From: Stieleria maiorica
GTDB lineage: Bacteria > Planctomycetota > Planctomycetia > Pirellulales > Pirellulaceae
DNA length: 64,000 bases
Assembly (NCBI RefSeq): GCF_008035925.1
Contig: NZ_CP036264.1
Location: 9,644,123 to 9,708,122, forward strand
Reading direction: 5' to 3'
Part shown: positions 54,476 to 56,971 of the stretch, in pieces
Layout of the letters: every line of letters begins with the position of its first letter
Position numbering within the stretch: position 1 is the stretch's first letter
The notes under the pieces: generated by a model
Seen by the model: the letters and a program-made list of their open reading frames with translations, nothing else
Database searches by the model: none
What the model was told of the DNA's origin: nothing
Program-made: the position numbers and the translations under genes

Positions 54476-56971
54476 TTAGACTTCATCATCTTCCAGGCTG
54501 GCCCGCAGCTGATTCGCCCGGGATTTGCGTTTTTCCTGTAACCGCTCCACCGGAACCTGGTGGGCGTACCGGGCGACCATGGCGACCAGTTTGGCCTGAT
54601 CGATGGGCTTGGCCAGGTAATCGTCACAGCCGCCGTTGAGGCAGCGGTCGCGATCTCCCTTCATCGCGTCGGCGGTCAAGGCGATCACGGGCCACTGGAT
54701 CCCGAGCGAGCGCAACATCGCGGTCGCTTGCAAGCCATCGACGTTGGGCATTTGCATGTCCATCACGATGACGTCGAACGGTTCGCCGGACTCGCGTGCG
54801 GCGATCGCCGCGTCGATGCCCTGCCCGCCGTCTTCGGCGGTCGCCACGCGCGCGCCGGCTTTTTCCAGGAAGTGCTGGCTGATGTGTCGCACGTCGCGTC
54901 GGTCATCGACCACCAGCACCCGACACGAAAGTCGCGCCGGCGCAGCGAGCATGGCTTCCGGTTCGCTGGTTCGCGTTACCAAATCGGGTTTGATCAGTTG
55001 GATTTCCGCGAACGACGTGATCGGTAAACGGACATAAAACGTCGACCCCTGACCGACGGTGCTGACCAAATCCATTTCGCCGTTCATCATTTCGACCAGA
55101 CGCTGGCTGATCGCGAGCCCCAAACCGCTGCCGCCGTAGCGTCGCGTGACGGACGAGTCGCCTTGGGAGAAGGGTTTAAACAGCCGCCGGATCTGGTCGT
55201 CACTCATCCCGATCCCGGTGTCCATCACCGCAAATTCAACCACCGGCGGTTCTGCATCATCAATGAATCGGACTTTCAATCGCACTTCACCTTCGTCGGT
55301 AAACTTGATCGCGTTTCCGATCAAATTGATCAAAACTTGGCGCAGCCGAATCGGGTCGGTCGTGATCGTCCGTGGCACCTTGCCTTCGAATTCGACGTCA
55401 AATCGGACATGCTTTTCCTCGGCCCGAACCAGCATCAGCGATTGGATGTCGGCGACCATTTGGGGCAGCGGGCAATCATCGGGCTCCATCGTCAACTTGC
55501 CGGCTTCGATCCGTGACAGGTCCAAAATGTCATTGATCAGTTCTAACAAGAACTGACCGTTCTTTTTCATGATCAGGACACAGTTGCGGTTGTCCGGATC
55601 CTGCAAGTGTCCCAGCAGGACATCGGCATAGCCCAGTATTGCGGCCATGGGAGTGCGAATCTCGTGGCTCATGTTGGCCAGAAACTCGCTTTTGGACTGA
55701 CTGGCGGCCCGAGCGATTTGCTCGCTCTCTCTGAGTCGTTGTTCCTGTTCCTTGCGGTCAGTGATGTCTTGCACGATGGCGCTGACGGCCGTCACGGTAT
55801 TTTTGTTCGCATCGCCACTTTCGCTGGGCAATTCGAGCGGATAATAACTCGCCAACCAAGTCCGCTGCTGGTCCGATGCCGGCGTCTTGCCGACGATTTC
55901 TACGCCCAAAACCGGCCGGCCGGTAGCAAACACGCGGCGATAAATCGGCAACAGCTGATCGTTCAACCCTTTCAGCAGTTCATCGGCACGCCGTCCGATG
56001 TGTTGATCGCGGGTGAACCCGTTGATCTTGGCTAACGTTTCGTTGACCCGCAAATACCTCAGGTCGCGGTCGATCAAACTCATGCCGACCGGAGCCGCTT
56101 TGTAGATCAATTCCAGCTCGCGGTTCTTGCGGGCGAGTTCCGATTGGATCACCCCCAGATTTGTCTGCGCTTGGTGTTGTTCTTCGATGTCTCCGACGGT
56201 GCCCACCCACTCGCGGATCGTGCCGTCGTCGTTCTTCACCGCCACCGCCTCCACCGCAAAGGTACGATAGGCCTGGCTGTCTTGGTGCCAGATGCGACCG
56301 CTCGCCTGGTATTTTCCAGATTCCAACGCTGCTTGCCAACGACGCTTCAACGAAGGGCGGTCATCGGGGTGAATGGCATTAATCCAACCGAATTGTTGGT
56401 GTTCGGTCCACGTTTGTCCGGTGTAGCGTTCCCAAGAGATCTGCGGGGTCGTAAATCCGCCCGCGGGATCTGTCGTCCAGACAATGCTCCGCGTCCCCCA
56501 CAGCAACGCTTCATACCGCGCCTTAACCAGCCTTAGTTGGCGCTGTGTCTCTTCCCGCTGACCGATTTCTTCTTGCAACCGTTCGTTGGTTGCCACGATC
56601 GACGGCAGTCGCAACAGGTGTGGCATCTGTTGCACCAGGACGATCACCGTCCCCCACGACACGACGGCTGTGATGAATTTCATCAACCCCGACACCCGAT
56701 AGAGCGGATGCCAAAAGATGATCGCTTCGATCAGATGCACCAAACCGCAAGCCGAAATGAAGGCGGCGAACAACCAGAACAGCCGGGTGGACGGGATGTC
56801 GTCTCGCTTGCGAGCGAAGTGAACCAGAACAACCGGGATGGCGAAATAGGCCCCGAAGGTCGCGGCATCGCTGACGATGTGCAGCCAACCGAGAAACTCC
56901 GACCAATTGCCACAGTGCCATCGCGCCGGGAAGTCGGAGGTGTCAAAGAAATTCGAAACAAAATCGCCCAT
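54476..56971 (-). CDS. Hybrid histidine kinase with ethylene-receptor-like membrane sensor
   Basis: 831 residues. Three N-terminal transmembrane helices (about 28-110) form a domain in which D35, Y42, I45, P46, I72, C75 and H79 have the exact spacing of D25, Y32, I35, P36, I62, C65 and H69 of Arabidopsis ETR1; C65 and H69 bind the Cu(I) that holds ethylene. A coiled coil and two PAS domains follow (about 148-270 and 285-405), then HisKA with MSHEIRTPM (His436), HATPase_c (LINLIGNAIKF, DTGIGM, GGSGLGLAI) and a C-terminal receiver with Asp738 (VIVMDMQMPNVDG). With the downstream NtrC-type regulator and HPt protein it makes a phosphorelay. The ligand is inferred, not shown. Confidence 0.92.
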   Translation of the reverse strand: MGDFVSNFFDTSDFPARWHCGNWSEFLGWLHIVSDAATFGAYFAIPVVLVHFARKRDDIPSTRLFWLFAAFISACGLVHLIEAIIFWHPLYRVSGLMKFITAVVSWGTVIVLVQQMPHLLRLPSIVATNERLQEEIGQREETQRQLRLVKARYEALLWGTRSIVWTTDPAGGFTTPQISWERYTGQTWTEHQQFGWINAIHPDDRPSLKRRWQAALESGKYQASGRIWHQDSQAYRTFAVEAVAVKNDDGTIREWVGTVGDIEEQHQAQTNLGVIQSELARKNRELELIYKAAPVGMSLIDRDLRYLRVNETLAKINGFTRDQHIGRRADELLKGLNDQLLPIYRRVFATGRPVLGVEIVGKTPASDQQRTWLASYYPLELPSESGDANKNTVTAVSAIVQDITDRKEQEQRLRESEQIARAASQSKSEFLANMSHEIRTPMAAILGYADVLLGHLQDPDNRNCVLIMKKNGQFLLELINDILDLSRIEAGKLTMEPDDCPLPQMVADIQSLMLVRAEEKHVRFDVEFEGKVPRTITTDPIRLRQVLINLIGNAIKFTDEGEVRLKVRFIDDAEPPVVEFAVMDTGIGMSDDQIRRLFKPFSQGDSSVTRRYGGSGLGLAISQRLVEMMNGEMDLVSTVGQGSTFYVRLPITSFAEIQLIKPDLVTRTSEPEAMLAAPARLSCRVLVVDDRRDVRHISQHFLEKAGARVATAEDGGQGIDAAIAARESGEPFDVIVMDMQMPNVDGLQATAMLRSLGIQWPVIALTADAMKGDRDRCLNGGCDDYLAKPIDQAKLVAMVARYAHQVPVERLQEKRKSRANQLRASLEDDEV

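Follow-up and report, generated by a model that had tools for sequence, protein, structure and literature searches.

The hybrid histidine kinase encoded at 54476..56971 (minus strand) of the analysed Stieleria maiorica DNA, a stretch of 64,000 nucleotides referred to here as the window, carries an ethylene-binding domain (EBD) of the ETR1 type. The favoured explanation as a whole, with a probability of roughly 0.55, is that this kinase would serve, as a plug-in sensor, a sigma-54 module for envelope stress that activates itself. What is new here is the probable wiring, in which an EBD kinase stands beside a sigma-54 response regulator (RR) with its Hpt protein and a CsbD-type module. If this is true, ethylene sensing outside plants would be directly readable as transcription, through a sigma-54 activator whose promoters are recognisable and whose candidate regulon is small. 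The conserved sigma-54/CsbD module is open to genetic study whatever its sensor.

Domain structure of the kinase

The gene encodes 831 aa from an ATG start. Pfam domains were found in the order ETR1_N (PF25487, residues 27-122), PAS_3 (residues 179-259), PAS_4 (residues 292-407), HisKA (residues 426-491, phospho-site His436), HATPase_c (residues 538-652) and REC (residues 685-799, phospho-site Asp738). The ETR1_N domain, which is the EBD, is encoded at 56606..56893 (minus strand) and contains three predicted transmembrane (TM) helices. The Pfam/HMM search for the ethylene-binding family, a check proposed in the initial annotation, returned ETR1_N with 122 bits against a cut-off of 27 (E 1.3e-35), a score that indicates homology and not chance. 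Together with the domain order, this match bears out the initial annotation of the protein as a hybrid kinase from a planctomycete whose ETR1-type domain is genuine. The seven ETR1 residues that were said to be displaced by ten are indeed all present (D35, Y42, I45, P46, I72, C75 and H79), each offset by exactly 10 from the ETR1 numbering, and are accompanied by K98. The pattern D-x6-Y-x2-IP-x25-I-x2-C-x3-H had a single occurrence when all six frames of the window were scanned, and it lies in this kinase. Chance resemblance of the septet was also considered and was ruled out by the Pfam score and the exact-spacing test.

Most of the seven residues are named as needed for ethylene binding by ETR1 in the available text of PMC6586836 and PMC11819568. 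Like Arabidopsis ETR1, the window kinase combines a three-helix EBD and the seven binding residues with the layout of a hybrid kinase with a receiver. Its closest relative among the matches listed was encoded on a Rhodopirellula sp. JC639 contig (94% identity), which upholds the assignment to the planctomycetes.

An AlphaFold2 model of residues 1-160 (mean pLDDT 93.7) placed helices at 25-55, 62-84, 91-121 and 125-159, so that the EBD is predicted to consist of three TM helices, which are then followed by a helical linker. In this model Cys75 and His79 occupy positions i and i+4, both on the second helix of the EBD. The expectation that the two residues stand face to face in the membrane misfits the known site, because they share one helix, as do the Cys and His of the Cu(I) site on TM2 of ETR1 (PMC6586836, in the sections available). 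For ETR1 itself, EPR distances were fitted better by an ab initio model than by the AlphaFold one, and fully by neither, according to the accessible part of PMC13012798. No solved homologous TM domain was found in the PDB by sequence, with one chance-level match each (E 0.15 and 0.09), and a fold search with the EBD model gave no match at E 0.001.

Light/ethylene receptors of the SynEtr1 type carry a GAF chromophore domain. No GAF domain was present among the Pfam matches of the window kinase, which has two PAS domains instead; it differs in this from SynEtr1 (slr1212, Synechocystis), which is described as also sensing light. Plant subfamily-1 receptors, in contrast to the window kinase, have a GAF domain as well (PMC5285503, in the text available).

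Conservation and spread of the ethylene-binding domain

Conservation was evaluated over 166 loci with distinct EBD sequences, drawn from 181 loci. The full septet DYIPICH was kept in 135 of them, and in a set of 58 EBD rows the figure was 51. Among single positions, His79 was kept in all 166 EBDs, Cys75 and Tyr42 in 159 each, and Asp35 in 158. The Cys75 position was Ser, Ala or Gly in seven of the 166, all of which retained His79; these EBDs may bind another metal, or none. Since some loci duplicate others exactly or nearly (L195-L197 equal L063-L065, and L287 is close to L289), locus counts are not event counts.

That few positions vary as little as the metal ligands would also fit a domain that senses copper state, another ligand or a membrane cue rather than ethylene, with Cu(I) occupancy as the signal, and the ligand is unreadable from sequence. 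This was judged quite improbable. All seven ETR1 ethylene-binding residues are kept, including the equivalents of I35, P36 and I62, none of which is named as a copper ligand in the available text of PMC6586836. AzoEtr1 from Azospirillum brasilense, which has the same septet, binds ethylene directly, and SynEtr1 binds it too (PMC11819568, as far as its text is available). Furthermore, no copper-transport family reached the Pfam cut-off among nine neighbouring window proteins, where a sub-threshold CopD match was seen (E 0.1).

Of 246 genomes sampled from the planctomycete phylum, 25 contained the EBD. Within the family, 61 of 241 genomes gave a match, 60 of them over the cut-off. Of 167 relatives found in named genomes, the best 80 spanned several phyla, namely Planctomycetota, Verrucomicrobiota, Bacteroidota (many Mucilaginibacter) and Myxococcota, and included a cyanobacterium, Omnitrophota and Hydrogenedentota. 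Since the domain is widespread in planctomycetes and other phyla, the receptor is of an already known kind. With ethylene-binding bacterial kinases already demonstrated, the finding is less novel than the initial annotation implied. No report of ethylene receptors in planctomycetes or Rhodopirellula was found in the open-licence literature, judging from the listed entries; reviews on non-plant receptors may say more.

Two further arrangements of the domain were observed. The S. maiorica genome encodes a second EBD-PAS kinase (C1:388684; L069:8343-10115), which has no receiver; the genes after it encode a solo receiver and a large CheB/CheR-PAS-kinase-like protein, both named by eye. In L074 (8365-8931) and L111 (8228-8905) the EBD and a helical stretch form a separate short protein, whose gene overlaps the downstream kinase gene by a few bases; a split ethylene receptor is possible.

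The response regulator and the Hpt protein

The RR gene (52846..54372, minus strand, 508 aa) lies 103 bp downstream of the kinase gene on the same strand. Its product has a REC domain with phospho-Asp72, an AAA+ domain with GAFTGA at 238 and a Fis-type HTH_8, and is an NtrC-type sigma-54 activator, with the REC-AAA+(GAFTGA)-Fis HTH order of NtrC-family regulators. It is unlike that family in remaining under the cut-offs of the NCBIfam families listed, in forming a subfamily separate from the genus paralogs and in being linked to CsbD genes. For the NtrC equivalog TIGR01818 (NCBIfam) it scored 465.2 against 558.6 bits, and it was under the cut-off of every NCBIfam family among the matches listed (25 of 107), the best being ntrC. 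In the RR tree, which leaves L201 and L087 unplaced, the regulators of the distant loci L099 and L289 grouped with the RRs of the genus (support 99/97), and the genus paralogs that were included fell outside this subfamily. One very divergent second protein of L289 was dropped before the second RR tree. The genome (9.89 Mb, single contig) encodes one RpoN over the cut-off.

A stand-alone protein of 114 aa is encoded at 52492..52836 (minus strand) and starts 9 bp past the RR stop. It was under the Pfam Hpt cut-off (18.7 vs 24.6 bits). Its His58, within HxLKG, was invariant in 10/10 aligned relatives, and AlphaFold2 gave a confident helical model (pLDDT 92.6). The best Foldseek matches of this model were mostly Hpt structures (TM up to 0.77, probability 1.00, best E 0.016), with zero matches at E 0.001. 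By its HxLKG histidine and its predicted Hpt helical fold, the protein is assigned as an Hpt protein.

The CsbD-YqjD-holin-X run

Upstream of the kinase and RR genes, on the same strand, four small genes form a run (59308-61189). These encode a CsbD-like protein (60716..61189, PF05532, likely start Met at 61147), a small membrane protein which we take to be YqjD-like by resemblance (60300..60713, no Pfam match over the cut-off), a Phage_holin_3_6 family membrane protein (59603..60103, PF07332) and, as the fourth member of the conserved run, small protein X (59308..59685), which has a sub-threshold DUF883_C-like end; all are on the minus strand. A GH32-like glycoside hydrolase gene (57641..59200, minus strand) is also found in the window, and relatives of it occur near the RR in some other loci. 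An Rfam scan of 50000-62000 gave no match.

Within the genus, the run shares the fetched stretch with the RR in 7/12 genomes (G000, G451, G450, G452, G454, G459 and G453). It was absent from that stretch in G455, where the contig ends, and in G458, G457, G449 and G447. Twenty further RR loci (L329-L348) from 19 genomes of other genera of the family were compared. The order CsbD-YqjD-holin-X-RR-Hpt on one strand was found in seven of these (L329, L330, L331, L334, L337, L339 and L340); X is missing in L342 and the run is inverted in L338. The CsbD run was missing within the fetched stretch in 11/20. An Hpt match was obtained in 16/20, the other four being without one. In L335, L338 and L341 another large kinase adjoins the RR on the same strand.

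More distant loci show related layouts. In L201, a groundwater MAG, the genes CsbD-YqjD-holin-X are followed by an EBD kinase and then by an RR (52% identity); all of these share a strand, and an Hpt-like gene lies on the opposite one. In L289 only 6 bp separate the RR from an EBD kinase, and within 9 kb of them the opposite strand carries an Hpt-like gene and CsbD-YqjD-holin genes. In L099 an EBD kinase precedes an RR (57% identity) and a hybrid kinase with an Hpt-like end. Gene order across these loci places the RR in a putative stress-gene module with CsbD-YqjD-holin-X.

Sigma-54-type sites

Near-identical sigma-54-type promoter sites were found before the RR and CsbD genes of the window. 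The former, TTTGGCCCGCGTTTTGCT (54440..54457, minus strand), stands 83 nt before the RR start, and the latter, TTTGGCCCGCGATATGCG (61210..61227, minus strand), 78 nt before the likely CsbD start. The RR site TTTGGCCCGC(G/C)TTTTGCT was identical in 6/6 aligned species save for one spacer base. The sequence upstream of it diverges and the site does not, even where the kinase is gone. A 16-nt pattern common to the two sites occurs four times in the 9.9 Mb, two of them at this locus, a count that reflects the likeness of the two sites and is not an independent test, since the pattern was derived from them. The third copy lies inside a 487-aa ORF. The fourth lies only inside a doubtful 110-aa ORF, and may therefore be a promoter too.

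For each ORF, the region between 300 nt upstream and 90 nt downstream of its start was rated with our own weighted score. A value of at least 0.84 was reached by 16/36 RR genes and 12/19 CsbD genes. The corresponding share among 358 control genes, taken from elsewhere in these loci, was 15.6%. The set includes many close relatives, and its loci are hence not independent. RR sites were under 0.84 in 20/36 loci, and the L341 site is inside the gene. Where the RR closes the CsbD run (L337, L339, L340 and L342), a strong site was found only before CsbD, and in L334 before neither gene. The general sigma-54 pattern gave 55 sites genome-wide vs 35 for the reversed pattern, and 10 in the window vs 5.2 expected. 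As this excess is only modest, reliance was placed on conservation and on the gene-upstream controls. In the five loci inspected, no sigma-54-type site was found in the 300 nt upstream of the kinase, which suggests that its expression is separate from the loop under its proposed control.

Linkage of the kinase to the module

A kinase ortholog (at least 66% identity) was found in 7/14 genus genomes and an RR ortholog (at least 70% identity) in 12/14; the G456 match is a paralog of 46%. Kinase, RR and Hpt are contiguous in 4/14, the window's genome included. In G457, G449 and G447 the kinase ortholog (66-68%) is located apart from RR-Hpt. RR-Hpt is retained with kinase remnants only in G452 (residues 687-734) and G454 (residues 73-130 plus 697-768). 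Decayed kinase pieces (L151:10055-10198 and L152:7681-8019) directly precede an intact RR-Hpt and a sigma-54-type site, which shows that the module outlives this sensor.

RR orthologs (at least 69% identity) were found in 45/240 family genomes, and a comparison of coordinates showed an intact EBD kinase adjoining the RR in only four of the 45. Some EBD match was obtained in 24/45 RR-bearing genomes, counting G454 (EBD fragment) and G388 (EBD broken by a stop), vs 37/196 other family genomes, an excess that could be explained by shared ancestry. The rarity of adjacency fits a second reading, in which the protein is a true ethylene-type receptor whose output is its own receiver or another regulator, its place beside the sigma-54 RR being incidental in one clade. 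Other counts point the same way. The gene after an EBD gene was a solo receiver in 39/166 loci vs a sigma-54 RR in 5/166, with a sigma-54 gene upstream in two more of the 166; this count is without L099, where an overlong ORF hid the gap. The 300 nt before the kinase gene showed no sigma-54-type site. Within 3.5 kb and on the same strand, 9/123 EBD kinases, including those of L099, L201 and L289, had a sigma-54 activator, as did 3/48 other kinases of the same loci, so that EBD kinases are not special in this rate. The argument for the module rests instead on which RR and which genes recur. RRs of the same subfamily again adjoin an EBD kinase in the distant loci L099 and L289 (99/97), and in L201 the kinase stands beside the same CsbD run. 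Moreover, a hybrid kinase requires an Hpt, and one adjoins. This second reading was rated less likely, at clearly lower odds than that of the kinase as a plug-in sensor.

The sigma-54 output proposed in the initial annotation is strengthened by the conserved RR-Hpt pair, the conserved sites and the adjacency in distant loci; as a specific trait of EBD kinases it did not hold (9/123 vs 3/48). The EBD tree (107/166 rows, few columns, many forks without support) requires at least three label changes for its starred branches, a pattern that fits either recruitment on several occasions or an ancient link that was lost many times.

Proposed signalling route

In the plug-in reading, Cu(I) is most likely bound by Cys75/His79 of the ETR1_N domain, as reported for homologs, and the domain would bind ethylene or a comparable small olefin. 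From there the signal would pass through the helical linker and the two PAS domains to the kinase core (His436). Judging from domain order, phospho-sites and adjacency, phosphate would then move from His436 to the kinase receiver Asp738, on to Hpt His58 and finally to RR Asp72. This relay is plausible because the kinase REC, the Hpt and the RR REC carry phospho-sites, the Hpt has the predicted fold, the RR has GAFTGA and the genome has one RpoN. Matching sites and synteny suggest that the phosphorylated RR and sigma-54 would activate the RR-Hpt transcript itself and the CsbD-YqjD-holin-X run. The kinase would be an exchangeable input of the module and not the sole one. If the kinase behaved as ETR1 and SynEtr1 do, its output would fall in response to ethylene; this direction is a guess.

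More tentatively, and at somewhat less than even odds, ethylene-receptor kinases may have been plugged more than once into a planctomycete self-activating sigma-54 RR-Hpt/CsbD-YqjD-holin-X phosphorelay, with ethylene, or a Cu(I)-olefin state, setting an envelope-stress programme, perhaps as an algal-surface cue.

Comparison with known ethylene receptors

The only paper found in the open-licence literature that joins sigma-54, an ethylene receptor and a histidine kinase concerns Azospirillum. In its available text (PMC11819568), AzoEtr1 resembles the window kinase in the EBD residues D35, C75, H79 and K98, which have identical numbers, and in a response regulator gene that adjoins the kinase gene. 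The two differ in that the neighbour of AzoEtr1 is a 135-aa solo receiver, whereas the window kinase has a sigma-54 activator and an Hpt. Azoetr1 is also preceded by a putative RpoN site, in contrast to the window kinase (none in 300 nt upstream). According to the same text, AzoEtr1 is paired with its solo receiver and SynEtr1 with a transcription-activating regulator; SynEtr1, an EBD kinase like the window protein, signals by phosphotransfer to a response regulator. Plants signal mainly via a Ser/Thr kinase (PMC11819568). Signalling from Arabidopsis ETR1 is not known to involve sigma-54.

A different neighbourhood surrounds the 66-68% kinase orthologs of G457, G449 and G447 (L066:2322-11029, L067 and L068). 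The kinase near the EBD ortholog was identified as a bacteriophytochrome by Pfam in L066 only, where a solo receiver, a REC-kinase-REC protein and a heme-oxygenase-like gene are also encoded; L067 and L068 have the same layout. By analogy, this arrangement hints at a possible light/ethylene link as in SynEtr1.
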